DNA of 64,000 nt from Bryobacterales bacterium (GTDB lineage: Bacteria; Acidobacteriota; Terriglobia; Bryobacterales; Bryobacteraceae): NCBI GenBank assembly GCA_003167255.1, contig PMTR01000033.1:41160-105159 (forward strand). The letters run 5' to 3'. Shown here one piece after another: positions 13,678-47,742 of this stretch (its first letter is position 1; each line of letters starts with the position of its first letter). The position numbers were made by a program, and so were the translations under genes. The notes beneath the pieces are model-generated. The model was given only the letters and a program-made list of their open reading frames with translations. It did not search any database and had not been told where the DNA came from.

Positions 13678-14385
13678 ATGCCCGCCTTTAAACGCATCCT
13701 GCTGAAGCTCAGTGGCGAAGTGTTGGCGGGCGGCGCATCGTTCGGAATCGATTCCGAAAAGGTCAAAGGCCTGGCACGGGAAGTGGCCGATGTGGCCGCG
13801 GCCGGCATCCAAATCGCCGTGGTCGTGGGCGGCGGCAATATCTTCCGCGGCGTGGCCGCGGCGGCGCAGAAGATGGACCGCGTGACGGCCGACCATATGG
13901 GCATGCTGGCCACCGTAATCAATTCGCTGGCCCTTTCCGATGCGCTCGAACAAGCCGGTGTTTCCACCCGCGTGATGAGCGCCATCGAAATGCGCCAGGT
14001 GGCCGAACCGTATATCCGGCGGCGCGCCATGCGGCACCTGGAAAAAGGCCGCATCGTGATCTTCGCCGCCGGCACATCCAACCCCTACTTTTCCACCGAC
14101 ACCGCCGCCACCCTGCGGGCCCTCGAGATCAAGGCCGACATCATCGCCAAAGCCACCCGCGTGGATGGCGTCTACGACAAGGACCCGTTGCAATTCCCGG
14201 ACGCGGTCAAGTACGACCAGATCACCTACCTCGAAGTGCTGGCCCAGGGCCTGCGAGTGATGGATGCCTCCGCCGTAGCCATGTGCCGTGACAACCAGCT
14301 TCCAATTATCGTTTTCAATTTGAATACGACAGGCAATATAATGCGTATGGCGATTGGCGAGCCAGTTGGTACTGTAATTAAATGA
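13678..14385 (+). CDS. pyrH: UMP kinase with an apparently exchanged 3' end
   Basis: 235 residues. It phosphorylates UMP to UDP. The amino-acid-kinase motifs [25 protein letters not shown] and the ATP-region [13 protein letters not shown] are standard. From about 14300 the codons become AT-rich (CCA ATT ATC GTT TTC AAT TTG...) unlike the strongly GC-ending codons before, and the last 16 codons recur at 41737-41784 just ahead of frr. This suggests that the present 3' end arrived with the downstream island and replaced the original. The protein still reads through to a normal C-terminus. Confidence 0.95.
14338..14385. repeat. Left copy of the pyrH 3'-end direct repeat (att-like)
   Basis: ATA-ATG-CGT-ATG through the pyrH stop codon is repeated at 41737-41784 in the same orientation. 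Of the 15 sense codons, nine are identical, three differ silently (CCA/CCC, ACT/ACC, GTA/GTC) and three change residue (Ala/Ser, Ile/Met, Lys/Gln). The stop differs too (TGA/TAG). Together the copies flank 27 kb. Confidence 0.85.
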
Positions 14386-30105: not shown

Positions 30106-30981
30106 TTGATCGACCGCAGGGAAGCGCCCGCGCAGGCGGTTCTGCCGGAGGAATTGAGAAGCGCTTACGGTGGCGACCTGTGGTTCCCGCCGGCAAGTCC
30201 CGAATGGCCCTATGTGATCGGCAACTTCGTGAGCACTGTTGACGGGGTGGTGAGCTACGAAATCGCCGGCCAATCCGGAGGAGGCGATATCAGCAGATTC
30301 GACCCGTCGGATCGTTTCATTATGGGGCTCCTCCGGGCGTCGGCGGACGCCGTCATGATGGGATCCGGTACGCTTCATGAAACCGCCCCCGGGCATTTAT
30401 TCGTTGCCGGCCGGGCATACCCGGAAGCCCGCGACCTGTATGCGCGCTACCGCTCGGAGACCCTTCGGAAGAAGGCGCCGCCGCTCCATGTTGTGGTTAG
30501 CGGAAGCGGCAGGATGGACCTCACCAGAGCCGTTTTTCGGACACCCGGAATCCGAACTTTGATTGTCACCACGAAAGCCGGTGGAGACCTCCTCGCAGCC
30601 AGCGGCGCGGCATCGCTGGTCTCCACTGAGGTTCGGCAGCTCGAAGGTCCCATCATTGCGCCAGCGGCCATTCTCGAACTTCTGCGTGCCGAGTTCGACG
30701 TATCGCTGCTTCTCCATGAAGGCGGCCCCACCCTCTTCGGTAAATTCCTGGCCGATGGCTGCGTCGACGAACTCTTCCTCACCATAGCCTCTCAAGTGGC
30801 CGGCCGAAACACGCCGCCACCCCGCCCGGGATTCATCGCAGGCGTGGGGTTTACTCCCGAAACAGCGCCCTGGCTGGACCTTGTCAGCGTGAAGCAGCAA
30901 GGCAACCACCTGTACCTGCGTTACAGCACCGCCAGTGAGTCAGGTAAACCACGTTCTGAACGTGAGGGGCCGGTCGTCTGA
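30106..30981 (+). CDS. RibD C-terminal/dihydrofolate-reductase-like reductase
   Basis: About 291 residues from TTG 30106. The start is uncertain: the best ribosome-binding site (ggagg at 30070) points to an ATC (30082) in the same frame, with plausible coding sequence between. The RibD_C fold is indicated by YVIGNFVSTVDGVVSYEIAG, FIMGLLRASADAVMMGSGTL, a nucleotide-binding stretch and LLLHEGGPTLFGKFLADGCV followed by DELFLTI. RibD-type enzymes reduce a ribosylamino-pyrimidine in riboflavin synthesis, but stand-alone relatives often have other NADPH-dependent roles. It converges on and overlaps the last gene of the RiPP-like operon by 42 bp. Confidence 0.75.
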   Translation: MIDRREAPAQAVLPEELRSAYGGDLWFPPASPEWPYVIGNFVSTVDGVVSYEIAGQSGGGDISRFDPSDRFIMGLLRASADAVMMGSGTLHETAPGHLFVAGRAYPEARDLYARYRSETLRKKAPPLHVVVSGSGRMDLTRAVFRTPGIRTLIVTTKAGGDLLAASGAASLVSTEVRQLEGPIIAPAAILELLRAEFDVSLLLHEGGPTLFGKFLADGCVDELFLTIASQVAGRNTPPPRPGFIAGVGFTPETAPWLDLVSVKQQGNHLYLRYSTASESGKPRSEREGPVV

Positions 30982-32403
30982 GCGGACCATTACGAATGAC
31001 GTGACGCGCCGGCCCGCGACCCACACGGTGGACACACTGGGAAATACGTCCGGCGGTTCGCTGGCGGACAGGAACTCGGGAAGGGAGGGGAGTCCGGGTG
31101 GGGTGGCAAAGTGTTCGGTCATGGCAAAGAACGCTTTGGCGCCGGGCCGCAGCACGTCGTAAACGGCCTTGAGGAAATTCAGCTTCTCGGGAAGGTATTG
31201 AAGAAGCTGAACGCAGATCACTAATGCAGCGGAGCCGCTGGCCAGTGGGAGCTGGTCGGCCGTACCGATGATTGCGCCCGGGGCATCGCCTCCCGGATTG
31301 AGGTCGAGACCCACCAACTGATGTTGCGGCCACCCGCTCGCAATATCGCGAAGCGCGGCGCCGCTACCACAGCCGATGTCAACGACGCGCAACCTGCCTT
31401 TCTGCGACAGAGTCGAAATGAGCTCTCGGAAGTGAGCCGGACCAACCTCCGCTTCTATCGACCATTCACCTGAGCGGGCGTGCAGCCGGCGGCTGCGAAC
31501 CATCGGGCTGGTCTCGACGGCGCCGCAGGAAGCAGCGCGGCTAAACGTCGTGCGCAACAGGAAATCGGCAGCATCGAGCGCCCGCCTGAGAAGGTCGATT
31601 CGAGCGCTCGCGGTCTGCCGGGAATTCACATATTCGGCCAGGAGGGTTGCCCGGAGGGACGGCGGAAGCGGCTCGGAGAATTGACCAGGGAAGCTGAATA
31701 GAGTCGCAAGGTTGGCGATTGGCACGTCCCAAAAAGACGCCATTTCCAGATCGACGAGCACCGGATGGCCATCCCGAAACAGGAAGTGTTCCCGTTTGAT
31801 ATCGGAAATAACCAGCATGGGGGAGTTTGCCACAGAGGCGGCCAGCGCTTCCGCGGCTTCCAGAACCTTGCCACGACGGTCTTCCGCGCCGCCGAACGTC
31901 AGCAGGATTTCCGCCGCGAGGCGGGCTGGCGAAGGAAAGCCAGTGGCCGTCAAGTCCGGGAAGAGGGAGTGGGCTTCTTCCTGCTTCATCTGACAGGCAT
32001 CGTGAAGGCGGGCCAGATAACGAACGATGGCGATCAATTCGGCCTCATCGGGTCTGGCCGGCGCCTCCGCCCGGCCAAGATCGCAATAGAGAATGGCGCC
32101 GCGTTCGGGATCTGACGACAGAATCGCCGGAGACTCGATGTGGCGGCGTTCCAGATATTCGTGAATCCGCACGCACAAGCTCGCCACCTGAGGCGAGGCA
32201 ACCTTCAGGATCAAGTGCGTATTGCCGCTGCAAACGCGATAAGTTTGACTCACATCCGACAGCGCCAGGGGCTCGACGGTCATGCCGGCAGCGGCCAACC
32301 CGCATCGAGCCAGGTACTCGCGCGCCCGGCGCTCCAGGCACGCCACTTCCACGGATGAGAGCAGTATGCGCTTCACGCGCGCTTGGGGAATCAGGGACAA
32401 CAT
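30940..32403 (-). CDS. Kinase-like/SAM-methyltransferase fusion protein
   Basis: 487 residues from ATG 32403. Residues about 1-290 have an aminoglycoside-phosphotransferase-like fold: NTHLILKVASPQ (ATP-side Lys), VISDIKREHFLFRDGHPVLV (catalytic-loop Asp; the usual HxD is SD and the Asn is His), VDLEMAS (metal-binding Asp). Residues about 330-487 are a class I methyltransferase with the SAM motif RVVDIGCGSGA and later LVGLDLN, VICVQLLQYLPE. Last gene of the minus-strand operon, overlapping the SPASM radical SAM gene by 13 bp. It may modify the peptide product or a small group attached to it; the kinase half may be degenerate. Confidence 0.7.
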   Translation of the reverse strand: MLSLIPQARVKRILLSSVEVACLERRAREYLARCGLAAAGMTVEPLALSDVSQTYRVCSGNTHLILKVASPQVASLCVRIHEYLERRHIESPAILSSDPERGAILYCDLGRAEAPARPDEAELIAIVRYLARLHDACQMKQEEAHSLFPDLTATGFPSPARLAAEILLTFGGAEDRRGKVLEAAEALAASVANSPMLVISDIKREHFLFRDGHPVLVDLEMASFWDVPIANLATLFSFPGQFSEPLPPSLRATLLAEYVNSRQTASARIDLLRRALDAADFLLRTTFSRAASCGAVETSPMVRSRRLHARSGEWSIEAEVGPAHFRELISTLSQKGRLRVVDIGCGSGAALRDIASGWPQHQLVGLDLNPGGDAPGAIIGTADQLPLASGSAALVICVQLLQYLPEKLNFLKAVYDVLRPGAKAFFAMTEHFATPPGLPSLPEFLSASEPPDVFPSVSTVWVAGRRVTSFVMVRSDDRPLTFRTWFT

Positions 32404-33719
32404 GCAACACCCGCGAAACGGCCGAGTTCTTCTTCGATAAGCCCGGCGAGCGCCGGGCAATCCGGGTTGGCCATTCGGCGGAGCTGCAGCGCCAGCACAG
32501 ACGCACGTTCAGCGACTGGCAGACGCGAAATGCGGGATCGGGCATCGCCGATGCTGGACACTTCGCCGCACAAGGCATCGAAGAAAGAAGCCGCGACGCC
32601 TGCCCAGTCGAGCTGAAGCCCTTGTAAGAGCCGCCGCGTCCGGACGGCATCGTGAAAGAGGCCAAACAAGGTCTGGTTCAGAACTTGAATTGGAAGGGCA
32701 GCCTCGTACTCGGATTCGTCAAGACGCTTCGCCTCATATCCGCGTGCGAGCCAGCCTTCGGGCATTCCGGGACAAACTTCCGCGGCCGCGCAGTTCCCGC
32801 ATTCGCCGGTCTTCGTACGGCGGAATCTCGACGGATAGACGTCCTCCAGAGTGTGCCGCTCTGAAATGGGGTGGGCGAAATCGGTGAAGTAGCAATCGAC
32901 CATAAAATTTGGAAGGCCGAAGGCGTTTTCCGGGAACGTTCCCGAAATGGCGTGTTGGATGCACGCTGGCAAGTTGAAGTCACGGAGAACGGCGGGAGCA
33001 CTGCGCCGGGCCAGCAGAAACCGGGCGCGTTCGAACTGCGAGCGGACTCGCGGAAGATCCGCCGCCGGCGGCAGCCAATCGGTATTGTCTTCTCCGTGAA
33101 TCCGAAATCGATTCTCTTTGTTTGCAGCACCGTATTCCCGGTGAACGGGCAGATAGTACAGACAATACAGCGGAGCTTGCCGTGAAGCCTCGCGCGTGCG
33201 CAGAATGAAAGCGGCGATGTCAGCCAGGCGATGGTAGTTCAACCGGTTGATTGAAGTGTTCGTGAACACGGCGGGAAAGAAGCGAAAGATGTTGCCCAGG
33301 CCTTGTTCCAGATCTTCGAAATGCGTGGCGGAGCCTGAGATGGCGGTGTGCATCGCAGGGTCGCAGGCGTGGATGGATACGTTGGCCTTGTCGAACAGGG
33401 CCCCGAGCGCCCGGGCCAGGCCCGAATCGGCGAGGTAGACGCCCATGGTGTCGAGAACCAGAGAGGACCACCAGATCCGCTTGGTTCGCAGGTACTCGAT
33501 CAGTTCGACTGCATCCTTGCGCTGTGTGAACTCGCCGCCCGACATTTCGAGCTCCACGCGGCGGCCCTCAAACATCTCTTCGATCCGATCGAAGGTCTCC
33601 TTCACCTGCGCCGTCGGCATGTAGCTGATGTTCCGGGGAACATGCAGCACGTGGCAGAATCCGCACTGGTGAGCGCACGCATACAAGGACTTGATAACGA
33701 TGTTGACCGTGGCCGTCAC
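32391..33719 (-). CDS. Radical SAM protein with SPASM-like Cys tail
   Basis: 442 residues from a GTG at 33719 that overlaps the YcaO stop by 4 bp. The radical SAM cluster motif is C15-AHQ-C19-GF-C22. Downstream are typical TIM-barrel segments (ELEMSGGEFTQ, DTMGVYLAD, SIHACDP). Near the C-terminus CGNCAAAEVCPGMPEG supplies extra Cys for auxiliary Fe-S binding as in SPASM/twitch enzymes. Such enzymes cross-link or otherwise activate residues of ribosomal peptides. It lies in an operon with YcaO, PqqD and two other radical SAM genes. Confidence 0.82.
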   Translation of the reverse strand: MTATVNIVIKSLYACAHQCGFCHVLHVPRNISYMPTAQVKETFDRIEEMFEGRRVELEMSGGEFTQRKDAVELIEYLRTKRIWWSSLVLDTMGVYLADSGLARALGALFDKANVSIHACDPAMHTAISGSATHFEDLEQGLGNIFRFFPAVFTNTSINRLNYHRLADIAAFILRTREASRQAPLYCLYYLPVHREYGAANKENRFRIHGEDNTDWLPPAADLPRVRSQFERARFLLARRSAPAVLRDFNLPACIQHAISGTFPENAFGLPNFMVDCYFTDFAHPISERHTLEDVYPSRFRRTKTGECGNCAAAEVCPGMPEGWLARGYEAKRLDESEYEAALPIQVLNQTLFGLFHDAVRTRRLLQGLQLDWAGVAASFFDALCGEVSSIGDARSRISRLPVAERASVLALQLRRMANPDCPALAGLIEEELGRFAGVACCP

Positions 33720-34975
33720 TGGTCCCGTTCTCCGGCGGCGGCCTGGGCCTCGTGGACCGCGGCGAGCGCGCGCGCGCCAACCCGGTACTCGTCGACGGCT
33801 ACGCATTCCAGGCCGGGCACAAGGACGCGGACGACACTAACGTCCAGATCGCTTTTCGTCAGATCCGCGACCAGAATCCGGCGCATATCGAAGCAGGCGA
33901 GCCGTTCTACCATCCAGAGGATGTCATCGCGGATGTCGCGATGACGGCGGCCGGAGGTCTTCAGCGACGACCTGGTGAAAGCCGGCCTGGTCAGGCTCCA
34001 CTCCGTGCCGGTCACCTTACCGTTGCCTGCGCGGCGCCGCCAATACGCGATGTCCTCGCGGGACCCCTGGATGTCTGCTGCCCGGCTCTGCGCGGCCTCG
34101 GTGATAGCGCGGGTGAGGGCGACTTCCGGATCGGGGTGAGCGCCCATGCCTTCGTGCGCCAGCACGCCGTGCGCAACCTGTTCGAAGCTGGCTGCGTAAT
34201 ACGCGGGCACCTTCAATTCGGAAGCAATGTCGCGAAGGAACAGGCGGACGCCGGCGCGATCGAAACTGTCAATCAAACGGCGGACGCCGGCTGGGGCATC
34301 GGCGAGATCGACTCCAGGGTAGCGATCGCCCATCCCGTGGCCTACTCTCACCCAACACAAAGACCACGAGTCACGCTCAATAAGCTCGGCAAGACCATGG
34401 CAGATGGCTTCCTCCGGGATGTTACCGGAAGCCAGGCCGTTCGTGCTGCCGCGCAGAATCATCAGAGGCCCGGCCGGGATGTATGGATGGAAGACGGCGT
34501 TGGCCGGAACCCAACAGGACTCGCCTGTCATGAGTTCTCGTGCCGGGTACCATTCGATGGGACGATCGGGCCGGTAGGGCGTCCATACAGGGAGGTTCAG
34601 TTCGCTGGGGTCGAGGGCGTTTTCGGAGCACGCAAGGCGCTCATATGATTCGACTCGTCCGGGCAACTCGCCCGGTTCGGCGCAGCAGTATTCGATCGCC
34701 TCCATGATCGCTCCGGCGCGCGCCTGCGAGCGGGAGGCGCCCTTCCCGCATGTGATGGAGACACTATTCTTGTGGGCGGACGGCCTTACGCAGGAGTATA
34801 CGGGAATGCCGATGCGGTCCAGACCGGTGATGTCCGCGATGCGGGTGACCCCGATTCTGGAAAGAAGCGGCTCCATTCGCCGGCAGGTGGCTCTGGCGCT
34901 GACCGTCCGGTGAACGCCTGTGCCTCCGATCTTCGGCGCACTTCGGACAAGCGGCGCGAATGCAGGCGCATTCAC
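33716..34975 (-). CDS. YcaO-family peptide cyclodehydratase/thioamidase
   Basis: 419 residues. YcaO proteins use ATP to activate peptide backbone amides, making azolines or, with TfuA, thioamides. ATP-site residues are seen in SQARAGAIMEAIEYCCAEPG, AICHGLAELIERDSW and a later DPEVALTRAITEAAQSRAAD. The C-terminus lacks the PxPxP tail of azoline-forming YcaO proteins. A tfuA-type gene is encoded 4 kb away in the same cluster, so thioamidation is the better guess. It overlaps both neighbours by 4 bp. Confidence 0.88.
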   Translation of the reverse strand: MNAPAFAPLVRSAPKIGGTGVHRTVSARATCRRMEPLLSRIGVTRIADITGLDRIGIPVYSCVRPSAHKNSVSITCGKGASRSQARAGAIMEAIEYCCAEPGELPGRVESYERLACSENALDPSELNLPVWTPYRPDRPIEWYPARELMTGESCWVPANAVFHPYIPAGPLMILRGSTNGLASGNIPEEAICHGLAELIERDSWSLCWVRVGHGMGDRYPGVDLADAPAGVRRLIDSFDRAGVRLFLRDIASELKVPAYYAASFEQVAHGVLAHEGMGAHPDPEVALTRAITEAAQSRAADIQGSREDIAYWRRRAGNGKVTGTEWSLTRPAFTRSSLKTSGRRHRDIRDDILWMVERLACFDMRRILVADLTKSDLDVSVVRVLVPGLECVAVDEYRVGARALAAVHEAQAAAGERDQ

Positions 34976-36648
34976 TGGACGCGCTCCCGCTCCCGGCTGG
35001 CGGCCCGCAATTCCGGTATCAATGCCGCGAGAGGCGCGGGGACCTCGGAAGCGTCCAGCGCGACGCGGCCGTCGTACGGCTGGGCCGGGGGGGCCTTGCG
35101 GCCGTGGATGGACAGGCCTTCAATGTAGGATCTCATCAGGTGGAACCTGGCGCGGCGCTCTTCCCGCGGCAATCCGTCCGTCCAGCACAGGGCGATGCGC
35201 CGCACGTGCGGTTCGAGGGCGGAAATCGCATCGGGGACCTCGATCTCACGAGGAAGGATGCGAACTCCGAAGCGGTCCCGATTGACGAAAAGGGACGAGT
35301 GCGGGTCCACTCGGGCCTGCGAAACCATGAAACGGACGGCGGCTCCGGTCTTGGCCGCTGCGTTGCGCAGGCGTTCGGCAAGACGCGAACTGCGTTTCAT
35401 CGTGCTCTCGTATTCTCCGAGCGTCTCGCCCGGATAGTTCGAGACCAGATTCAGCCCTAGCGATATTCCCGCATCCACGGCCATGGCAAGCGTTTCTTCC
35501 GTTTCCGCAACCGAGGTATGCCGGTCCATGCGGGCGAGGGTCCGCCCGTCCAGCGACTCGACGCCGAAATTCACCTTTTCAAAGCCGGCCGCGCGCATGG
35601 AATGGAGCAGCGGCCGCGGCAGCCGCCGCGGTTCGCAGTGAGCGAAGACGACCTGCGGTTTGAACGAAAGCCGTTGCATTCCGGCGGCCAGTTCGGCGAG
35701 CCATGGCGGCGACACGTTCAGAGTGCTGTCACAGAAGAAGAGGCGGGACGTGCCGAAGCGCTGGCGTTGTGCATCGATCTCGCCTAAAACGGATTCGCTT
35801 TCGCGAAGCCGGTAATTCTTGGGGTAGATCGATTCGTAGCAGTAGGCGCAGCGGCGGGCACACCAGCGCGACCCCCCCACGCTGACCGCGTCGTGGAAGT
35901 CGCGGTTGGTGTCGCTGTAGTAACGCAGCGTGGCGCCCGGAAATGGAAGACCCGAAAAGTCCGGCCAGGGCAGGCTATCGAGATTGGTTGGCGCGGAGGG
36001 GCCGGGAATACGGATTAGGCGGCCGCTGTCGATGCGAACCAGTCCAGGTGTCGCAAGTGAGTCCACGGGCCTTCCGCATTCCAATGCGTCCATGAGCGGG
36101 ATGAGGGTCGTCTCCGCCTCTCCGGGAAGCAGGGCGTCGGCCCAGTTAGCGCGCAACACCAGTTCCTGAATCTCGGCGTAGATGGTTCCCCGGCCGCCAA
36201 GAATGCGCGGAACCTGCGGTGCGCGTTCGTGGAACAATACACTCGCCCAGAGCACTATGAAGAGATTGCTGACCAGGGCCGGCAGGAGCACAACCTCGGG
36301 ACTGAGCTGCGCCATGGCTTCGGCCCAGGTTTCAACGTGGGGCCGCAGGGATGAAAGAAGGTCGCGGTCTGCGTCGCTCAACTGCCGCTGGACGGCTTCA
36401 TCCTGCGGCCACAGCGCCCCGAACAAGAGCTCCGGGCGGTGAAGGAACTGGACTTGCTCCGCCCAGACCTCCCCGTACACTTCGGTTTCGTCCTGCAGGC
36501 GCAAGGAGAGATCCTCGTCGTTCAGGCGAAGAATGTGCTCGAAATCGGCGAAGATCGCCTCGTGGCCTTCCGCGCGCAACAGCGCCGCCAGATAGCCGGC
36601 GCCCAGGCGGTGGTTGTATACCGGGAACAACGGCACCAGTATTCGCAT
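34972..36648 (-). CDS. B12-binding-type radical SAM enzyme (second)
   Basis: 558 residues. The N-terminal region (MRILVPLFPVYNHRLGAGYL, then LLPALVSNLFIVLWASVLFH) resembles a cobalamin-binding domain of the radical SAM B12 class. The SAM cluster is in SRWCARRCAYCYES, and GVESLDGRTLARMDRHTS is a typical barrel motif. Enzymes of this class methylate unactivated carbons or form rings. The His of a classic DxHxxG B12 motif is not obvious, so cobalamin binding is inferred. It overlaps the first radical SAM gene by 1 bp and YcaO by 4 bp. Confidence 0.8.
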   Translation of the reverse strand: MRILVPLFPVYNHRLGAGYLAALLRAEGHEAIFADFEHILRLNDEDLSLRLQDETEVYGEVWAEQVQFLHRPELLFGALWPQDEAVQRQLSDADRDLLSSLRPHVETWAEAMAQLSPEVVLLPALVSNLFIVLWASVLFHERAPQVPRILGGRGTIYAEIQELVLRANWADALLPGEAETTLIPLMDALECGRPVDSLATPGLVRIDSGRLIRIPGPSAPTNLDSLPWPDFSGLPFPGATLRYYSDTNRDFHDAVSVGGSRWCARRCAYCYESIYPKNYRLRESESVLGEIDAQRQRFGTSRLFFCDSTLNVSPPWLAELAAGMQRLSFKPQVVFAHCEPRRLPRPLLHSMRAAGFEKVNFGVESLDGRTLARMDRHTSVAETEETLAMAVDAGISLGLNLVSNYPGETLGEYESTMKRSSRLAERLRNAAAKTGAAVRFMVSQARVDPHSSLFVNRDRFGVRILPREIEVPDAISALEPHVRRIALCWTDGLPREERRARFHLMRSYIEGLSIHGRKAPPAQPYDGRVALDASEVPAPLAALIPELRAASRERERVQ

Positions 36649-38030
36649 TACGAACTCCCGGCACAGCCCGTCTCGGTTGCCGAGAGGCTGTCGATTCGAA
36701 TATCCGAGAGGTTGAGCCCCAACCGCTTCCCGATTCGGCTCTTTTCGTCCACCATCCCATCCGAGAAGTGATAGAAGCCGGAGAAGAGGCTGGGGAACGC
36801 CGCGATCGTTTCCGCGACTTCGGCCAGATTCGCCTCGCGTCCGGGCGCGATGATGGTCGAGTAGACATCGGGCCGGAAGGTCAGGCGGTCGCGGAACTCT
36901 TCGTAGAGCGCGGTTCCAGGCAGCGGTGTGACCAGCGAATAAAACACATTAGCACCGCAGTGGTTCAGATACTGTCCGAAGGCGAGCGTCTGGTGAAAAT
37001 CGCTCATGGTTTCGAACGGGAAGCCCCACATGAGCGGCGTGTGGGTGTACATGCCCAGGCGCGCGGATTGTCGCACCGCGTCCGCCGTTTGCTCGAACGG
37101 GATCGCCTTGTTCACGCGCGCCAGTACCGCGGGTGAGCCGGACTCAACACCGTAGAACACGTACTGACAGCCCGCGGCGGCCATCCGGTCGAGCAACTCC
37201 GAATCGACACGGTCGATCCGGGTTGTGCAGCCCCACGAGGCAGGGACGCCTGCCGATTCAAACCGGTCGCAGAATTCGATAGTTCGTTTCCGGTTGACCG
37301 TGAACAGGTCGTCCACGAACGCAATGTGCCGGACGCCGCAGCCGCGCAGCCACTCGATTTCGGCCAGCACATTGTCCACGCTACGCGCGATGTTCTGCCG
37401 GTTCCACATGGAGACGACGTCACAATAGGTGCAGGTGTACGGGCAGCCGCGGGCATAAACCACGCCGACTACGTCATAGTCCTGGAGATTGACACGGTCG
37501 TACTCGGGAAACACAATCTGGTCCAACTCGCGCCGGCGCTCGCGGCGGGAGTTCACCGTCACAACTGAATTGGCGGCGCGCCATGCCAGCCCGGGAATCG
37601 TCCAGGCAGGCGGACTGCCCTTAGCCAGGAACCTGAGAAGATCGACGGCCGTCTCCTCGCCCTCGCCGCACACCACGAAATCGATGGCGGGGAAGGTTTC
37701 CAGCAGTTCCTTGGCTACGGCGCTTGGGCCCGGACCTCCGAAGACAATCTTGATTTCTGGTCTGCAAGCCCGGAGCTTCTCAACCGCCAGCACACCGTAT
37801 GGAAGCATACCGGCGAAGCAGGAGATGCCCACCACAGGCGCATCCGCGGTTTCAAGAAACTCCGCAATTCGATCGATGCGGAACAAATCCGGCCCACGCT
37901 CCAGGGCGTAGTCGCGGAAAACCGTGGAGAAGCCGGCATCCTCGGCCGCGGCGACGATATACAACGCGCCGAGAGGGGCCATTTTCATAGATTGACCGGC
38001 AGCCAGGTTGAAAACGGCAAAATCCGGCAT
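36648..38030 (-). CDS. B12-binding-type radical SAM enzyme (first)
   Basis: 460 residues from ATG 38030, 4 bp after the pqqD-like stop. N-terminal B12-binding-like domain (LAAGQSMKMAPLGALYIVAA, KIVFGGPGPSAVAKELLETF, FVVCGEGEETAVDLL). The radical SAM cluster is in GCPYTCTYCDV, followed by HIAFVDDLFTVNRKRTIEFC and YGVESGSPAVLARVNKAIPF. The class includes C-methyltransferases acting on ribosomal peptides and other metabolites. Two such enzymes side by side suggest two separate carbon-centred modifications. Confidence 0.83.
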   Translation of the reverse strand: MPDFAVFNLAAGQSMKMAPLGALYIVAAAEDAGFSTVFRDYALERGPDLFRIDRIAEFLETADAPVVGISCFAGMLPYGVLAVEKLRACRPEIKIVFGGPGPSAVAKELLETFPAIDFVVCGEGEETAVDLLRFLAKGSPPAWTIPGLAWRAANSVVTVNSRRERRRELDQIVFPEYDRVNLQDYDVVGVVYARGCPYTCTYCDVVSMWNRQNIARSVDNVLAEIEWLRGCGVRHIAFVDDLFTVNRKRTIEFCDRFESAGVPASWGCTTRIDRVDSELLDRMAAAGCQYVFYGVESGSPAVLARVNKAIPFEQTADAVRQSARLGMYTHTPLMWGFPFETMSDFHQTLAFGQYLNHCGANVFYSLVTPLPGTALYEEFRDRLTFRPDVYSTIIAPGREANLAEVAETIAAFPSLFSGFYHFSDGMVDEKSRIGKRLGLNLSDIRIDSLSATETGCAGSS

Positions 38031-38034
38031 TGCC

Positions 38035-38328
38035 TTAGAGTGGGGAGTCAGGCCCAACCCGATCGGGCGGAAGTACACACAGCAGACCCTGAGCCATCAT
38101 GTCGTCAAGCGCCTGGTCCACCAGCCGGTACAATTCGAGAGTGTCCCCGAAGACGCGCCCGGCGACCAATTCCCGGATGGCTTCTCGCGTGGCGCCGCTC
38201 TTGGCGGCTTCGAAAACGATTTTGGCGTCACCGTTCAGAACAAAAACTTCATCGTTGTCGAATCGGTGCACCAGAAGCTCATCGCCAATCGCGCGGTCGA
38301 GCACCTCCTCTGGAGCGGCGTATCTCAA
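38035..38328 (-). CDS. PqqD-like peptide-recognition protein
   Basis: 97 residues resembling the PqqD/RRE fold, a small winged-helix-like domain that binds the leader of a ribosomal peptide and hands it to modifying enzymes. Visible are YAAPEEVLDRAIGDELLVHR, the strand DEVFVLNGDAKIVFEAAKSG and a C-terminal helix pair (LYRLVDQALDDMMAQGLL). It sits between the candidate precursor gene (30 bp) and the first radical SAM gene (4 bp), the usual place for a recognition element. Confidence 0.82.
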   Translation of the reverse strand: MRYAAPEEVLDRAIGDELLVHRFDNDEVFVLNGDAKIVFEAAKSGATREAIRELVAGRVFGDTLELYRLVDQALDDMMAQGLLCVLPPDRVGPDSPL

Positions 38329-38358: not shown

Positions 38359-38769
38359 TCAGAACTTGCCGGCAATTCCGATGCCGACAGTTATCCCCAC
38401 CGGGCCAATGCCCCCGCCAATCGGTTTCCGGACTTTGGAAATCTGCGGATCGAACTTTATTACACCATTCTTGTTGGCAGCGGCGGCGAGGCGTTGGTCC
38501 CCCACAATCTGGAGTTGAAATGCCTTCGCGTTCTTGCTCACCGAAGAATTCACGCTTTTCGAGAGGCTGGCCATGGCCTTATGTTGCGAATCGGACAGAC
38601 GCGAAAGCATCGCGGCGGCCTGCTTGGGCGCCAACGCACCCAACTGCATGGAAATGCCTGGTAGCATCTTCTGTAAAGCCGCCTGGACCTCCTCTTCGCT
38701 TCCTTCGGCCTGCACCAGATACTGATTCGGTCCGGTGCCAAGAATCACAAGATTGCGGCTTGCAGCCAT
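38359..38769 (-). CDS. Candidate RiPP precursor-like protein with Gly-rich C-terminus
   Basis: 136 residues from ATG 38769, chosen because gaggagg lies about 9 bp upstream. It is first in the minus-strand operon. The N-terminal 100 or so residues are an ordinary soluble, Ala/Gln/Ser-rich helical stretch (LVILGTGPNQYLVQAEGSEE, VQAALQKMLPG) that could be a long leader. The last 19 residues, GGGIGPVGITVGIGIAGKF, are striking: Gly alternating with Ile/Val and no charge until the final Lys. Such a tail is a plausible core for backbone modification. I recognise no family; it could instead be an unrelated small protein. Confidence 0.6.
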   Translation of the reverse strand: MAASRNLVILGTGPNQYLVQAEGSEEEVQAALQKMLPGISMQLGALAPKQAAAMLSRLSDSQHKAMASLSKSVNSSVSKNAKAFQLQIVGDQRLAAAANKNGVIKFDPQISKVRKPIGGGIGPVGITVGIGIAGKF

Positions 38770-38820
38770 ATGTGCATACCCTCCTCGCAGCAGAATTATA
38801 TCATACAATTGAAAACTAAC

Positions 38821-38859
38821 TGCCTAAGAAAAATGCCTAAGAAACATGCCTAAAATGCA
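38821..38859. promoter_or_regulatory. Three 13-bp tandem repeats between divergent RiPP-like genes
   Basis: tgcctaagaaaaa, tgcctaagaaaca and tgcctaaaatgca follow one another exactly, in an AT-rich gap between the precursor-like gene and tfuA. The 13-bp period is compatible with an operator array. The AT-rich stretch ttatatcatacaattg (about 38797-38812) beside it is a likely promoter for the leftward operon. Confidence 0.55.
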
Positions 38860-38867
38860 AAAATGTG

Positions 38868-39563
38868 ATGAGCGCTCGACAGCGCCAAAAGGCTCCCCAT
38901 TTGGCTCGTAAACCCATTGTCTTTCTCGGGCCCAGCCTGAGGGCGGAAGAGGCAAGGGAAATCCTGGACGCCGACTATCGCCCCCCAGCCCGGCGGGGCG
39001 ACATGACCGCGGCGGCTCGCGAATCGCCGCCAGTTATCGGCCTTATTGACGGCGTATTCCTGGCGAGCTTACCCCCGTCACCCCTTGAAGTGTTGGAAGT
39101 GCTGCGAGGCGGTACGGCGGTCATGGGCGCATCGAGTCTCGGGGCCTTACGGGCCGTAGAGTTAGAATCACACGGCATGGTAGGCATCGGGAAGATCTTC
39201 GCAATGTACCGGCGAAGGCAGATCATCGCGGACGACGAAGTCGCGCTGGTCTTTTCGGGGGAGGATCTGAGACCGCTTTCGGAACCGCTGGTCAACATAC
39301 GATACGGCCTCTCCGCGGCCCGGCGCGTGGGCGTGATTGGCGCGCGGGAGCGCCAATGCCTCATTCGAATCGCTAAGGAGATTTACTTTGCCGAGCGAAC
39401 CTGGCCCCTCGTTTTTCATTCCGCGAAGAACTGTATGGATTCGGACAGATTAGAAGCGTTGGCTGCATTTATCGATCAGGGCGCCTTCGATCTGAAGAGA
39501 AAAGATGCGGTACAACTCCTCCATGCTGTGCGAAAGTTCCTCAAGGGTGAACGGCCAACGTAA
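38868..39563 (+). CDS. TfuA-family protein
   Basis: 231 residues from ATG 38868 (GTG 38865 also possible). The TfuA domain is clear: FLGPSLRAEEAREILDADYR, PPARRGDMTAA, IGLIDGVFLASLPPSPLEVL, GASSLGALRAVELESHGMVG and ADDEVALVF. TfuA works with YcaO in peptide thioamidation, supplying sulfur by acting on a sulfur carrier. The gene is divergent from the YcaO operon and overlaps the next gene by 17 bp. Confidence 0.88.
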   Translation: MSARQRQKAPHLARKPIVFLGPSLRAEEAREILDADYRPPARRGDMTAAARESPPVIGLIDGVFLASLPPSPLEVLEVLRGGTAVMGASSLGALRAVELESHGMVGIGKIFAMYRRRQIIADDEVALVFSGEDLRPLSEPLVNIRYGLSAARRVGVIGARERQCLIRIAKEIYFAERTWPLVFHSAKNCMDSDRLEALAAFIDQGAFDLKRKDAVQLLHAVRKFLKGERPT

Positions 39564-41013
39564 GCTGCGGTTTCTCATCCGCGGACAGAGTCTGCCGGAT
39601 TCGAACTGGCTCAACCAGGCACTCGCTGCTCTGGGACACGCGGTAATAGAAAGCCGCCTGACGCCCGCCGAATGCGACGTGCTGCTGGTGCACGATCCAT
39701 CCGCGGCAACTGTCCGCGAGGTGGAGGCGGCCCGCCGGACCGGCATCTTGACGATCCTGCGCTCCTGGCGCGATCCGGAGACGCTTGAAGCCGCGGGATC
39801 GTCGGCTGCGGGATACGACTGGGTCGTGACCACCGGACTTGCCGGGATGGTGAATGCTTACGCCAGCGTAGGCGCGCGGGCTGTAACGCTGTTGCCGTCG
39901 GCGCCGCCGCTGGTTTCGCCCCGGAATCCGAGGCCGCGCGATTACGACATCATTTTTGCCGGGCGATTAACGGGTCCGGAGCGCAAGCTCCGTCTGGATT
40001 TCTTGCGGAGGGCCGCCAGCAAATGGAAGGTTGCCGTGATCACCGATGATGCCGCCGCCTGGAATGGCGCTCATCCGCTGGCGGCGTCCAGGCTCGAAGA
40101 ATTCCATAGGCGCGCCCGCCTCACGCTGCATACCGATCGCATCGCGCTCAACCGGTTTGGAGTGACGCGTGGGTGCCCGGCAAGGCGCCCTTTTTTCGGT
40201 CCGGCGTTTGGGTGCGTGCTGTTGGCCGAGTTGCGTCCGTGGCTGCTCCACTGCTTCGATCCGGCTTCGGAAATGGCGGGCTTCGCTGATGAGGAACAGG
40301 CGATTTGCGAAGCGGCCGCGCTGCTTGAAGACCCGCAGCGCATGGAGAGCATTGCGGCCGCCGGCGCGGAGCGAGTACGTGCGGATCATTTGCCGGAAAG
40401 GCGGGCACGCCAACTTGTGACACTGGCGTCGGGAACCGTTCCTGCCGCGATGCAGGTGCTGGCGCTTGGACCGTGGTATCAGCAGATCGAGTTGCCGGGC
40501 GGGGAGAAAACCTGCCTGCTGGAGCATTCAAATGTGAAGCGATGGCAACGCTTGAAGCACGTGTTTCCGGATGTGCGAGGACGCAGTGTTCTCGACCTGG
40601 GGATGAATGCGGGTTTCTTCTCGCTCGAATGCGTGCGGCGCGGCAGCACGCGCGTGTGCGGCGTAGAGTGCTCGCCGCTGTCGTGCGCCCAGGCCCGGTT
40701 CGTGTTTGAGCAGTGGCGGACGAACATCGTGGAAGTTTTGGAGCGAGACATTCTGGAAGCCCCGGCGGGGCCCTTCGACGTTTGCCTGGCGCTTGCATTG
40801 CTGCACCATTTCGAGAACATAGGTCCCTTGCTGCGAATCGCGACCGAGCGTTGCCGCGAGGTGGTGCTCGAATGGGGATTGCGGGAGGGTTCGTTCTATC
40901 ACCCGGTGGAAGACGTCACGAACTGGTTCAAGCGCGCCGGGTGGAATCCGGTGGTTGTGTCGGAGGGCGTGCGGCCTATAGTTATCGCACGGGCTGACGG
41001 TCACGCCGTTTGA
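39547..41013 (+). CDS. Glycosyltransferase-like/methyltransferase fusion
   Basis: 488 residues from GTG 39547; ATG 39523 would add eight. The first 300 or so residues look like a CgeB/GT-B type glycosyltransferase (DYDIIFAGRLTGPERKLRLD; FGPAFGCVLLAELRPWLLHC; GFADEEQAICEAAALLEDPQ, with the usual C-terminal nucleotide-sugar region). From about 330 a CmoB-like class I methyltransferase follows (LGPWYQQIELPGGEKTC, SVLDLGMNAGFFSLECVRRG, then LALALLHHFENIGPLL). The gene is translationally coupled to tfuA, suggesting that the product is glycosylated and methylated, or that the GT half is a binding domain. Confidence 0.72.
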   Translation: MNGQRKLRFLIRGQSLPDSNWLNQALAALGHAVIESRLTPAECDVLLVHDPSAATVREVEAARRTGILTILRSWRDPETLEAAGSSAAGYDWVVTTGLAGMVNAYASVGARAVTLLPSAPPLVSPRNPRPRDYDIIFAGRLTGPERKLRLDFLRRAASKWKVAVITDDAAAWNGAHPLAASRLEEFHRRARLTLHTDRIALNRFGVTRGCPARRPFFGPAFGCVLLAELRPWLLHCFDPASEMAGFADEEQAICEAAALLEDPQRMESIAAAGAERVRADHLPERRARQLVTLASGTVPAAMQVLALGPWYQQIELPGGEKTCLLEHSNVKRWQRLKHVFPDVRGRSVLDLGMNAGFFSLECVRRGSTRVCGVECSPLSCAQARFVFEQWRTNIVEVLERDILEAPAGPFDVCLALALLHHFENIGPLLRIATERCREVVLEWGLREGSFYHPVEDVTNWFKRAGWNPVVVSEGVRPIVIARADGHAV

Positions 41014-41608: not shown

Positions 41609-41736
41609 TTCGTTTAACCTCCAGGCCGGGCAACCAGGCGGCAGGGAACTGATCCGGCGGCCATTCGTGCGCGTTTGCGCGCGGTGGCCGCCGTTTTGTT
41701 TTTGAAGGAGAAGGACTTCCGAAACGCCCACCCGCT

Positions 41737-41784
41737 ATAATGCGTATGTCGATGGGCGAGCCCGTTGGTACCGTCATTCAATAG
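41737..41784 (+). pseudogene. Detached 3' end of pyrH before frr
   Basis: It encodes [15 protein letters not shown] and a TAG stop, matching the C-terminus [15 protein letters not shown] of the intact pyrH at 14338-14385. It has no upstream pyrH sequence. It lies 38 bp before frr, the position a native pyrH end would have, so this is probably the original end displaced by the insertion. Confidence 0.85.
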
Positions 41785-41822: not shown

Positions 41823-42428
41823 ATGAAGCCAGAACAGCACGCAGCACCCAGCGATTCCACTTTCAACTCGATCAAGGAAGTCGAGGCCAACCTGAAGGCC
41901 CACATGGAGAAAGCCGTCTCGGATCTGCAGCACGAAATGGCCGCCATCCGAACCGGGCGAGCCTCACTGGGGATCTTGGATCACATCCGGGTGGATTACT
42001 ACGGCACGCCGACGCCGCTCAACCAGGTTGCCAACCTGCACGTACCGGAACCGTCGCTGATCACCATCCAGCCCTGGGACATTTCGCAGATCGGGCCGAT
42101 TGAAAGGGCGATCCGGATTTCGGACCTGGGCCTCAACCCGTCCAACGACGGCAAGCTCATCCGCCTGCCCATTCCGCCGCTCACCGAAGAGCGCCGCAAG
42201 GAGTTGGTGAAGAAGTTGCACGCCGCCGCCGAGCACCATCGCGTTTCCGTGCGCAACATCCGCCGCGACGGCAACGAAAACGTCAAGAAGCTCTTGAAAG
42301 ACAAGAAAATCACCGAGGACGACGACAAGAAAGCCCACGACGAAATCCAGAAGCTGACCGATCTCTACATGGGCAAGATCGACGCCGCGGCGAAGGGCAA
42401 AGAGAAAGACATCCTGGAGATCAAATAG
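41823..42428 (+). CDS. frr: Ribosome recycling factor
   Basis: 201 residues. It splits post-termination ribosomes together with EF-G. Family motifs include IRTGRASLGILDHIRVDYYG, TPLNQVANLHVPEPSLITIQ, PWDISQIGPIERAI and LRRDGNE-like VRNIRRDGNENVKKLLKDKK. The N-terminus is longer than usual by about 15 residues (PEQHAAPSDSTFNS). It is normally the gene after pyrH; here 27 kb intervene. Confidence 0.97.
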   Translation: MKPEQHAAPSDSTFNSIKEVEANLKAHMEKAVSDLQHEMAAIRTGRASLGILDHIRVDYYGTPTPLNQVANLHVPEPSLITIQPWDISQIGPIERAIRISDLGLNPSNDGKLIRLPIPPLTEERRKELVKKLHAAAEHHRVSVRNIRRDGNENVKKLLKDKKITEDDDKKAHDEIQKLTDLYMGKIDAAAKGKEKDILEIK

Positions 42429-42494
42429 CGCCGGTGGGACAGGCGTCCTCGCCGGTCGATTCGCGGTGAGGAAATTCGTGTGAATAGCCGCCAA

Positions 42495-42597
42495 TTGAGA
42501 AGATCCTAACGTAGCAGTACATCAATCGGAGCCGCGACCGTTAGGGAGCGACCCGCCCGCGGAGATCAAACGCTCCCTTACGGTCGCGGCTCTGATT
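42495..42597. repeat. GGAGCCGCGACC-type long palindrome with flank
   Basis: Arms 42524-42550 and 42571-42597 pair with two or three mismatches. Both the palindrome and the 26-bp flank (ttgagaagatcctaacgtag...) recur at 29838-29944. It fills most of the gap between frr and higB; nothing else is recognised there. Confidence 0.8.
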
Positions 42598-42671
42598 GGT
42601 GTCCAGCCCTCTTCACTTCTCTGTCCCACACCCGTTGAGTCGATACGCCGCACGTAGTACGTTTGATGTGT

Positions 42672-42947
42672 ATGATTCGTTCGTTCCGATGCCCGGAGAC
42701 CAAGGCGATCCAAGAAGGACTTGGGAGCCGGAAGTTTCGCGGGATCGAAGAACAGGCGCGCAAGCGGCTGCGCTGGCTGGATGCCGCCACCAGCCTCACC
42801 GATTTGGGCGCCATTCGGGGCAACCGGGTGGAGCTGAAGCGCGACCGGGCCGGTCAGCACAGCATTCGGATCAACGACCGCTGGCGGATCTGCTTTTGCT
42901 GGCGCGATGGCAATGCGTGTGACGTCGAGATTGTGGATTACCACTAG
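42672..42947 (+). CDS. higB: HigB/RelE-type toxin
   Basis: 91 residues from ATG 42672. The fold and motifs are those of HigB-type mRNA interferases: SFRCPETKAIQEGLGSRKFR, ARKRLRWLDAATSLTDLG, NRVELKRDRAGQHSIRINDR, WRICFCWRDGNACDVEIVDY. It cuts mRNA on the ribosome. The antitoxin gene follows 12 bp later, the HigB-first order typical of this family. Confidence 0.9.
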   Translation: MIRSFRCPETKAIQEGLGSRKFRGIEEQARKRLRWLDAATSLTDLGAIRGNRVELKRDRAGQHSIRINDRWRICFCWRDGNACDVEIVDYH

Positions 42948-42959
42948 AAAGGGAGAGTC

Positions 42960-43262
42960 ATGGCTCAGAGAAGGAAACTGCCGCCCATCCACCCGGGCAA
43001 GTTGCTCCGGGATGAACTCCATGAGATTGGAGTCAGCCTGAACGAACTGGGGCGCGCGCTCCGGGTTCCGATGAACCGGATCAGCGCCATCGTCAACGGA
43101 AACCGGGCCATCACCGTGGACACCGCGATGCGTCTGGCCCTGTATTTCGGTACGTCGCCGCAGTACTGGCTGAATCTCCAGAGCGCATACGATTTGGAAG
43201 TCGCGGAGCAGAAAATTCGGCCGCAAATAGATAAGGAAGTCCTGCCGCGCACAGCCGCATGA
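42960..43262 (+). CDS. higA: HigA-type antitoxin
   Basis: 100 residues with an XRE-type helix-turn-helix: PPIHPGKLLRDELHEIGVSL, NELGRALRVPMNRISAIVNG, ITVDTAMRLALYFGTSPQYW. It binds and neutralises HigB and should repress the shared promoter. ATG at 42960 is preceded by aaagggaga. Confidence 0.92.
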   Translation: MAQRRKLPPIHPGKLLRDELHEIGVSLNELGRALRVPMNRISAIVNGNRAITVDTAMRLALYFGTSPQYWLNLQSAYDLEVAEQKIRPQIDKEVLPRTAA

Positions 43263-43341
43263 GGCGGTGCCGGGCGGGCAGACGATTCAAAGCGCTGGCC
43301 GGCGATGGTAGTGGAGATTGTCGACTATCGCTTGGAGAGGC

Positions 43342-43391
43342 GCACGAGAATATATATCACGCAGTTCAGTGCTGTCCCGGTTTGTCCCCAA
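43342..43391. repeat. Left end sequence of the SPARDA-vapBC segment
   Basis: acgagaatatatatcacgca plus gttcag and the terminal-like tgtcccggtttgtcccca (43373-43390). A similar stretch lies at 47061-47107. The 17-bp gtcccggtttgtcccca is repeated in inverted form at 47940-47956 with one mismatch. Confidence 0.75.
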
Positions 43392-43412
43392 CTAAAACAT
43401 TTTACGTACTTT

Positions 43413-43432
43413 TTGTGTTATTATCGACACAA
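43413..43432. promoter_or_regulatory. AT-rich promoter/operator candidate before SPARDA
   Basis: ttgtgt-tattatcg-acacaa is a perfect 6-bp inverted repeat over a -10-like TATTAT in a clearly AT-rich stretch, 50 bp before the first SPARDA gene. No ideal -35 is seen. Confidence 0.35.
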
Positions 43433-43482
43433 TTCAATGTGGTGTCCACCGCGTCTCGATGCCCGCATTGCGACGAGGACGA

Positions 43483-44811
43483 TTGAAGACCCTCAGCCAA
43501 CAAACGTTTCTAGGCCAGCAGGGCATCAACCTGATCGAGCGCCGTATTCACGAGATGGGCTACTGGTGGTACCCATCGGCCGTGGCGGAAGTCGGCATCG
43601 ATGGAATTCTGGAGATTCGCGACAGCCAGACGGGCCGTATGACGAATCTCATCCTTCAGGTCCAGAGTAAAGCCACAGAGCGTCCCTGGCCAGGGGAGCG
43701 TGATGACAGCTTCCACTATATCTGCGACGAGGAAGATCTACAGTATTGGCTCGCCGGAACGGCAGAAGTCCTGTTAATCATGACTAGGCCGAGCGAGGAA
43801 CAGGCATATTGGGCGCCGGTGAAGGCTTACTTCAACACGCACCCGGAAAACCGCGTGGCCCGGCGCATCTCGGTAGTCAAGGCCGATTCGAGATTCGACA
43901 AGACGGCAGCGGAGGCCCTCTTGCGCCTCGCGGCGCCGAAGGAAGCGGGCGCGTACCTGTCACCCCGACCCAAGAAGGAGCGGCTATATTCGAATCTTTT
44001 GCGCGTCTCGCATTACGCTCCAGACCTGCACATCGCCCAGACCGACATCCGAGAAGGTCGACAATTATGGGCCAAGGCTAAAGAGCTTGGGGTCGAAATA
44101 GGACCAGAGTGGTCCTTCTCCGGCGGAAACATCCTTTCCTTCCATGATCTCTCGCACTATCCGTGGAATCGCTTCTGCGATACCGGCACCCACGAGACCT
44201 TCAATACTTCGGAATGGGCCGAGTCAGACGACCCAAATCGCCAGCGCCAGTTCGTCCGTCTTCTTAACTGCTCGCTTACTGAGCGGCTCAAGGAGTGGGA
44301 TGTCCGAAGGCGCAGGGACGACGACATGTACTACTTTGCTGCGGCGAGAACATTCAGGCCGCGGCGCGTCGATTTCTCCGGATCCATTGCGGAGCAGTTC
44401 CGGACCGTGGTGCAGAAGTACCCGTCCGGCCGGACCAGCTATATCCGACATCTTGCCTTCAGCGGCTATTTCAAGAAAATGGATGGTCTCTGGTACCTGG
44501 AAATCACACCGTCCTACATTTTTACGATGGATGGGTTCAGGCCATCGAAATACGAAGCCGATCTCCTATCCGGAATCAAGCAAATCGAACATAACGATGC
44601 CGTATTGGTGCAGGTCCACCTATGGACGGATCTGCTCACGCGCAGGGCCGATCTCGTGCATCAGGATTATGCGTTCCTCCGGTTCTCCGAACTCCTCTCG
44701 TTCGAGCTGCCCTATGGAATTAACGATAAGGAATGGCTCTCGAAAGAGGATCTCGACGTCGCGGAGAGCGGCCTCGATTCCCTCACGAAACTCGGGCCGC
44801 TCTTCCAATGA
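43483..44811 (+). CDS. SPARDA effector: DUF4365 nuclease-APAZ protein
   Basis: 442 residues if TTG 43483 is used (gagga well spaced; the family starts near SQQTFLGQQGIN); ATG 43459 adds eight. Residues about 5-150 form the DUF4365 (DREN) PD-(D/E)xK nuclease with VAEVGIDGILEIRD (D40) and ILQVQSK (Q61, K63). Residues about 165-440 are an APAZ domain, which binds the short Argonaute and its guide. In described SPARDA systems the heterodimer degrades DNA indiscriminately after the Argonaute recognises plasmid or phage DNA. It overlaps the pAgo gene by 4 bp. Its base composition is lower in GC than its neighbours. Confidence 0.85.
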   Translation: MKTLSQQTFLGQQGINLIERRIHEMGYWWYPSAVAEVGIDGILEIRDSQTGRMTNLILQVQSKATERPWPGERDDSFHYICDEEDLQYWLAGTAEVLLIMTRPSEEQAYWAPVKAYFNTHPENRVARRISVVKADSRFDKTAAEALLRLAAPKEAGAYLSPRPKKERLYSNLLRVSHYAPDLHIAQTDIREGRQLWAKAKELGVEIGPEWSFSGGNILSFHDLSHYPWNRFCDTGTHETFNTSEWAESDDPNRQRQFVRLLNCSLTERLKEWDVRRRRDDDMYYFAAARTFRPRRVDFSGSIAEQFRTVVQKYPSGRTSYIRHLAFSGYFKKMDGLWYLEITPSYIFTMDGFRPSKYEADLLSGIKQIEHNDAVLVQVHLWTDLLTRRADLVHQDYAFLRFSELLSFELPYGINDKEWLSKEDLDVAESGLDSLTKLGPLFQ

Positions 44812-46247
44812 GACCCTTTTTCATTCAGGAACCGGAGCTGCAGTTCGGACAAGGGCGCCACATTGATATCCGCTTCGGCATATCGAATTACAAGCCGCTG
44901 GACTATCGCGACAAACTAGCGCCGAAGACAATCCCGCTCGGCATTGTTGGGCCCGAGCGCAACATCTCCGATCTCCGGGAATGGCTCAACCTTTGTGGAA
45001 AGGGCATTGAGGCTAAATCCTCGAACCAGCCAAATCTCTTCCCTTCGTTTCCTGGCTTTGGGGACGATACTCCCTATGACGCGAAGCTCCTATTCGACTC
45101 GCGCCTCGAACGCCAGATGTCCATGCGCGATCTCCCGAAATCCGTGGACGTGAAGGGCTACAACAAGTTCATCACTGAGCTCGCGGAAACCTATATCAAG
45201 GAAGCCGAGGCATGCTCTGAGCGCGGCGCTTCTGTCGTGATATGTGCGCTACCCATCGAAGCACTTGATCTCATCGACCCAGACGAACCCGCGCCGGAAG
45301 ACGCGGAGACACCAGAGACGCCGGAGCAAGATTTTCATGACCTGCTGAAGGCCCGTGCCATGCAGATCCAGCGGATAAAGCCTATTCAGATCGTCCTGCC
45401 AATGACGTACTCGGAGAATGTCCGTCGGAAAAAGCGCAAAAAGAAGGCCGATACCCGTAAACTGCAGGACACGGCGACGCGCGCTTGGAACTTCCATACA
45501 GCCCTCTATTACAAGGCTGGAGGCGCCCCTTGGCGTCTAATCCGGGACGAGGCTGACATTACTTGCTGTTTCGTAGGTGTGAGCTTTTACAAGACACTCG
45601 ACGGCTCGATGATATTCACCAGCTCCGCACAAGTGTTCAATGAACGGGGTCAGGGCCTGATAGTTCGCGGCAGCCCGGCGAAGATCGCCAAAAACGACCG
45701 TGACATCCACATGACCGGCGAAGGCGCGCACAAACTGATAACGGACGCGCTCGCCGCCTATCGTGCCGAGCACAGGACAATGCCGGCGCGCGTTGTCGTG
45801 CACAAAACTTCCGGCTTTGATGATGACGAAATCGAAGGCTTCGTCAAGGGTATAGAGGATAAGGATATCGGTCTGTACGACCTCGTGAATGTCTCGAAAT
45901 CCCATACGCGTCTGTTCCGGGTTGGGCTCTATCCCCCACTCCGCGGTACGGCGATAGAAGTGGACGAAGACCAAGCGCTTCTCTATTCCCGAGGCGCAGT
46001 CGATTTCTTCCAAACCTACCCCGGCATGTACGTGCCAAGGCCACTGGAACTGCTTGCCGAAGATTCGGATAGGTCGATTTCCGATATCACGAAAGAAGTT
46101 CTGGCGCTCGCAAAAATGAACTGGAACAATACAGAATTCGACAATTCGATGCCGGTCACAATTCAAGCCGCCAAGAGGGTTGGCAGGATCTTGAAGTATA
46201 TCGGAATAAATGACCGTGTCAGCCCCTTATATAGCTCTTATATGTAG
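44808..46247 (+). CDS. Short prokaryotic Argonaute (MID-PIWI), inactive slicer
   Basis: 479 residues from ATG 44808 (ATGA overlap). It has no PAZ domain. A MID-like region (about 45-240, KTIPLGIVGPERNISDLREW; SVVICALPIEAL; DTRKLQDTATRAWN and YYKAGG as guide-5'-end pocket) leads into PIWI. The strand that normally carries the first catalytic Asp reads FVGVSFYK (Ser at about 259), and later segments (ARVVVHKTSGFDDDEIEGFV; NTEFDNSMPVTIQAAKRVGR) have the fold but not the full DEDX set, so target cutting is not expected. It guides the paired nuclease. Confidence 0.88.
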   Translation: MRPFFIQEPELQFGQGRHIDIRFGISNYKPLDYRDKLAPKTIPLGIVGPERNISDLREWLNLCGKGIEAKSSNQPNLFPSFPGFGDDTPYDAKLLFDSRLERQMSMRDLPKSVDVKGYNKFITELAETYIKEAEACSERGASVVICALPIEALDLIDPDEPAPEDAETPETPEQDFHDLLKARAMQIQRIKPIQIVLPMTYSENVRRKKRKKKADTRKLQDTATRAWNFHTALYYKAGGAPWRLIRDEADITCCFVGVSFYKTLDGSMIFTSSAQVFNERGQGLIVRGSPAKIAKNDRDIHMTGEGAHKLITDALAAYRAEHRTMPARVVVHKTSGFDDDEIEGFVKGIEDKDIGLYDLVNVSKSHTRLFRVGLYPPLRGTAIEVDEDQALLYSRGAVDFFQTYPGMYVPRPLELLAEDSDRSISDITKEVLALAKMNWNNTEFDNSMPVTIQAAKRVGRILKYIGINDRVSPLYSSYM

Positions 46248-46253
46248 GCGCTA

Positions 46254-46340
46254 ATACCTCGGCTTCAACTCCTCCGACTCCCGCCATAGCCGCTCCCATT
46301 CCTGCCCATACCGCTCCGCCGCTGGCATTTGGGGGTTGAG
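46254..46340 (-). pseudogene. Gene-end remnant of unknown origin
   Basis: The minus strand reads LLNPQMPAAERYGQEWERLW then RESEELKPRY and a stop, with the look of a protein C-terminus but no start. It lies between pAgo and vapC. I cannot assign it. Confidence 0.3.
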
Positions 46341-46393
46341 TAACCCAGAAATATGCAGGTCGGCGATCACTACTCGGGAAACCGGGTCAGATT

Positions 46394-46777: not shown

Positions 46778-46794
46778 GGTGTTTCGCGCTTGTG

Positions 46795-47019: not shown

Positions 47020-47060
47020 AACGTCCGCCTGCTCTGCCTGTCTCATCGTAGCATTTATGT

Positions 47061-47107
47061 GTACGAGAGAATATATCACGCAGTTCAGGATGTCCCAGTT
47101 TCCCCAC
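47061..47107. repeat. Internal copy of the SPARDA-segment end sequence
   Basis: acgagagaatatatcacgca, gttcag and tgtcccagtttccccac match 43342-43391 with a few small differences, in the same orientation. Confidence 0.75.
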
Positions 47108-47722: not shown

Positions 47723-47742
47723 GCGGATGGAGGCCAACTTTT

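Follow-up and report, generated by a model that had tools for sequence, protein, structure and literature searches.

Gene content of the cluster

The window, a 64,000-nucleotide stretch of a contig from a soil Bryobacterales bacterium, carries a tightly packed operon encoding, in this order, a protein of 136 residues, a PqqD-like protein, radical SAM proteins 1 and 2, YcaO, radical SAM protein 3, and an APH-methyltransferase fusion (Table 1). The genes for TfuA and a glycosyltransferase-methyltransferase fusion are divergent from the operon, and no peptidase or exporter is encoded in the cluster. Between the two transcription units, tandem TGCCTAAGAA repeats occupy positions 38818 to 38843 with a 13-base spacing, followed by a partial third copy (to 38855), and may form an operator. 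A consensus scan of this divergent region returned no sigma-70-like promoter.

Table 1. Features of the cluster and of the repeats that flank the segment carrying it
Feature	Position	Strand	Basis
Candidate precursor, 136 aa	38359..38769	minus	ATG at 38769, stop at 38359; no family match
Stand-alone PqqD-like protein, 97 aa, proposed RRE	38035..38328	minus	Pfam PqqD E 0.062, profile 9-67 of 67
B12-binding radical SAM protein 1	36648..38078	minus	Pfam B12-binding and Radical_SAM; motif CPYTCTYC
Radical SAM protein 2	34972..36648	minus	Radical_SAM, partial B12-binding match; motif CARRCAYC
YcaO	33716..34975	minus	TIGR03266 E 6e-92; PDB MJ1094 E 2e-46
Radical SAM protein 3, MoaA/PqqE-like	32391..33806	minus	Motif CAHQCGFC and C-terminal cysteines
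APH-type phosphotransferase-SAM methyltransferase fusion	30940..32460	minus	Pfam APH 4e-9, Methyltransf_11 1e-10
TfuA, YcaO partner in thioamidation	38865..39563	plus	Pfam TfuA 5e-37; NF033432 at cut-off, 235.2 bits
Glycosyltransferase-methyltransferase fusion	39505..41013	plus	Profile matches (Pfam, NCBIfam)
Divergent promoter region	38770..38864	.	TATAAT and tandem TGCCTAAGAA repeats
Left copy of pyrH 3'-end repeat, 36 bases	14337..14372	plus	Present pyrH end, more diverged
Right copy of pyrH 3'-end repeat, 36 bases	41736..41771	plus	Just before frr

The PqqD-like protein stays under the Pfam cut-off (14.1 versus 23.4 bits), though nearly the whole profile is covered, and a search of PDB sequences gave no match. 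Radical SAM protein 1, which probably starts at an ATG near 38030, has ApyD as its best NCBIfam model (187 bits versus a cut-off of 750); for radical SAM protein 2 the best model is the RiPP C-methyltransferase TIGR03975 (83 bits versus 282). The CxxxCxxC cluster motif is found in all three radical SAM proteins of the locus. YcaO is closest to the type that thioamidates the McrA glycine, yet it scores 308 bits, short of the 365 required by TIGR03266, and it exceeds the cut-off of TIGR00702. Alignment revealed that its three ATP-binding motifs are all intact. Motifs 1 to 3 (GAIMEAIE, CHGLAELIERD, and EAAQSR) display, with the numbering matched by eye, the Met, His, and Ala that are the preferred residues of TfuA-associated YcaOs (PMC8120280).

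The presence of a YcaO of the thioamidating subtype together with TfuA assigns the locus to the YcaO-TfuA thioamidated-RiPP type of cluster. The nearest models of both proteins, TIGR03266 and NF033432, describe the McrA glycine thioamidation system of methanogens, and radical SAM protein 1 likewise shows similarity to the model for the MCR glutamine C-methyltransferase (107 bits). In contrast to that system, the genome lacks McrA, and the methanogen target thus cannot be the substrate of the YcaO and TfuA of the locus.

The first gene of the operon and its C-terminal tail

The preliminary description had placed the 136-residue ORF first in an operon, behind a strong ribosome-binding site and ahead of a pqqD-like gene, all of which was borne out. 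A clear Shine-Dalgarno sequence lies upstream of the ATG (...GAGGAGGGTATGCACAT-ATG, with GAGGAGG ten bases before the start), the PqqD-like gene follows after a gap of ~30 nt, and the genes for the three radical SAM proteins and YcaO lie beyond it. By codon usage, the ORF's own frame scores highest among the six (0.215); one antisense frame reaches 0.151, as is likewise seen at the other genes of the locus.

The unusual tail reported for this protein is also real. Its last 19 residues (GGGIGPVGITVGIGIAGKF) comprise 8 Gly, 4 Ile, 2 Val, and 1 Lys and are otherwise uncharged; the whole protein is devoid of Cys, and the tail has a single Thr. We propose that the last ~19 to 25 residues, ending in this sequence, constitute the core. 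Of 3,354 ORFs (those of at least 60 aa in all DNA examined), just one, the candidate precursor, ends in a 19-mer that has 8 or more Gly, 6 or more Ile/Val, and no more than 1 charge. Five consecutive repeats of [IV][GAST] occur once among 3,833 ORFs (586,407 residues), again in this protein, and four consecutive repeats occur in one further place. Nowhere else do the same translations contain its strictly alternating ten residues, VGITVGIGIA. As most of the ORFs counted are mechanical rather than genes, these figures are a statement on the rarity of the tail, not on its function.

Of the interpretation offered earlier, one part was supported and the other was not. The ORF is still the best precursor candidate: no gap in the locus holds another plausible small ORF, and the first position in the operon is that seen in other acidobacterial YcaO-TfuA loci. 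The suggestion of a nitrile-hydratase-like leader found no support, with Pfam and NCBIfam searches yielding no family match for the protein and none to NHLP, Nif11, or other leader families at E values up to 1.

Search for relatives

Homologues of the candidate precursor, including any located away from modifying enzymes, were sought and not found in 237 genomes of the family, 396 sampled genomes of the phylum, or plasmids. Short peptide patterns, which distant relatives would escape, retrieved no close relatives from 84,980 species genomes. Weak matches (e.g., L103, E 0.003) turned out to lie in unrelated reading frames, expected by chance at such a number of genomes. Radical SAM proteins 2 and 3 had no orthologues where searched, and the latter had no relative in 180 genomes of the class or in plasmids. 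The plasmid neighborhoods of TfuA or radical SAM genes were inspected and represent other kinds of clusters.

Small first ORFs in other acidobacterial YcaO-TfuA loci

TfuA searches produced matches in 19 other acidobacterial genomes. An ORF of 87 to 105 aa directly precedes the first enzyme gene in at least eight loci (L050, L052, L060, L061, L079, L080, L081, and L083). A small ORF is therefore commonly first in acidobacterial YcaO-TfuA loci, and its position favors the 136-aa gene as the precursor. The first ORFs of seven of these loci (all except L050) can be aligned into a single loose family that has a common N-terminal part and a changing tail. These seven ORFs, of ~90 aa, had no convincing match in Pfam or NCBIfam. 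An ~840-aa Ser/Thr kinase with TPR repeats precedes the small ORF in L052 and L079, the two loci examined. In a further locus, L051, a PF14407 RiPP-peptide match lies after TfuA.

The locus closest in enzyme content is L050, where a true TIGR03975 RiPP C-methyltransferase (667 bits) is encoded beside a first ORF of 93 aa. It shares with the window the enzyme types (radical SAM protein, YcaO, and TfuA) and a small first ORF with an alternating end (TISIKIKGTFVEK), and it differs in having a single radical SAM protein and a TfuA with a long extension. Homology of TISIKIKGTFVEK to the TVGIGIAGKF of the window was rejected as not significant. The alignment score was reached in 383 of 5,000 shuffles, and the likeness of the two tails is thus a resemblance only.

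An insertion between pyrH and frr holds the cluster

The genes rpsB-tsf-pyrH-frr are contiguous in a genome of the same genus (G162) and in four other family members. In G162, which has ~95% protein identity in this region, the pyrH-frr gap is about 40 bases. In the window, ~27.4 kb separate the two genes (positions 14337 to 41771), with the cluster inside. The right copy of the 36-base direct repeat that bounds this stretch is nearly identical to the pyrH 3' end of G162. A diverged left copy together with a G162-like right copy is as expected of DNA that inserted at the pyrH end and supplied a new end to the gene. The cluster therefore sits in an acquired segment, which would explain why relatives of the precursor are missing.

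No integrase was recognized in the inserted segment, which also holds a histidine kinase and an NtrC-type regulator (identified by eye from the translation). Multiheme cytochromes, an MtrB/PioB porin, and NrfD are encoded at 17349 to 25397 and may form an extracellular electron transfer module. Next to frr, positions 42428 to 47946 form another region for which the contig of the same-genus genome gave no match. It contains a RelE/HigA-like pair (by eye), a DUF4365 protein (PADLOC Argonaute-associated REase type), and a short prokaryotic Argonaute (44733 to 46247). Csm5 and Csm4 of a type III CRISPR system are encoded at 47991 to 50446.

Discussion

We consider it probable that the 136-aa gene specifies a RiPP precursor and that this RiPP belongs to an undescribed subtype of the YcaO-TfuA (thioamidated) kind. 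The cluster is best read as a thioamidated-RiPP variant that is an orphan and was acquired horizontally; the identity of the substrate, the start of the core, and all of the chemistry are inferred. Specifically, the PqqD-like protein would bind residues 1 to about 112, which would serve as a long leader, and the Gly/Ile/Val tail would be the core. YcaO and TfuA would exchange sulfur for at least one backbone oxygen, most likely at Gly, using ATP and a sulfide donor, and the B12-type radical SAM proteins would add methyl groups to Ile/Val (or Gly) at unactivated carbons. Further changes may be introduced by radical SAM protein 3, the APH-methyltransferase, and the glycosyltransferase-methyltransferase.

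Several observations argue for this assignment: the place of the gene at the head of a packed operon for modifying enzymes, with 30 nt between it and the PqqD-like gene; a thioamidating YcaO with intact ATP motifs and the Met/His/Ala signature, accompanied by a TfuA that scores at the NCBIfam cut-off; a genome without McrA; a tail unique among the ORF translations; and the first-position ORFs of eight loci, the PF14407 match in L051, and the lack of a rival gap ORF. Against it stand the length of the protein, which exceeds that of a usual leader plus core, the lack of a precursor homologue, the RRE call under the Pfam cut-off, radical SAM proteins 1 and 2 scoring far under the cut-offs of the RiPP models, the missing peptidase and exporter, and the nonsignificant likeness to the L050 tail.

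Some of these points would also fit a 136-aa protein that is modified but kept whole as a small structural or functional protein, with no peptide being released, as in McrA or ribosomal protein uL16. Its unusual length and the nearness of YcaO and TfuA to the McrA-modifying type are consistent with such a fate, which we judge unlikely but not negligible because the operon has no peptidase or exporter gene. Nonetheless, tailoring enzymes of this number and kind (three radical SAM proteins, a glycosyltransferase, and methyltransferases), together with a PqqD-like protein, are in keeping with peptide natural products, and known thioamidated RiPP clusters may lack transporters too (PMC8120280). 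It is quite improbable that the gene encodes an accessory protein (a chaperone, regulator, or immunity protein) with the true substrate elsewhere in the genome; such a role would account for the missing leader family match and for the lack of any homologue showing precursor behavior, but it is at odds with the gene position, the tail composition, and operon gaps free of other small ORFs. Proteusins of the polytheonamide type combine alternating beta-branched and small residues with B12 radical SAM enzymes; the present cluster differs from them in having YcaO-TfuA. A proteusin-like product, with a core epimerized by radical SAM protein 3, C-methylated by the other two, and folded as a beta-helix behind a nitrile-hydratase-like leader, would agree with the strict alternation of small and beta-branched residues, the B12 radical SAM proteins, and the long leader, but is very improbable given that no NHLP or Nif11 leader was matched, that the alternating stretch is just ten residues, and that radical SAM protein 3 is nearer MoaA/PqqE than any named epimerase.

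As a precursor locus, the cluster resembles those of thioviridamide and thiovarsolin (survey PMC8120280) in bringing together a thioamidating YcaO and TfuA, a small first ORF, and tailoring enzymes. It departs from them in that B12 radical SAM and a stand-alone PqqD occur together, with three radical SAM proteins in all, in that TfuA is divergent rather than co-directional, and in that the candidate precursor has 136 aa, no Cys, one tail Thr, and no known leader type. Every single element of the cluster is already known: some YcaO-TfuA clusters have a B12 radical SAM protein, or a radical SAM protein plus a stand-alone PqqD, and a few acidobacterial YcaO-TfuA clusters have been reported (PMC8120280). 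This combination of enzymes with this precursor was not found in a limited sample of the open-access literature. A bolder proposal, which we regard as distinctly doubtful, is that a protein-sized, hitherto unseen leader presents a Gly/Ile alternating tail for thioamidation and C-methylation at several positions, yielding a beta structure that has a modified backbone and is membrane-active or self-assembling, and that the whole travels on a mobile segment inserting at the pyrH end.

If the precursor assignment is true, YcaO-TfuA thioamidation would extend to a core made almost wholly of Gly, Ile, and Val. One acidobacterial cluster would then unite this thioamidation with the chemistry of B12 radical SAM enzymes, with three radical SAM proteins in all, and with a recognition protein that stands alone. 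The locus offers a compact, testable nine-gene set with a clean before/after insertion site, in a phylum with few characterized peptides.
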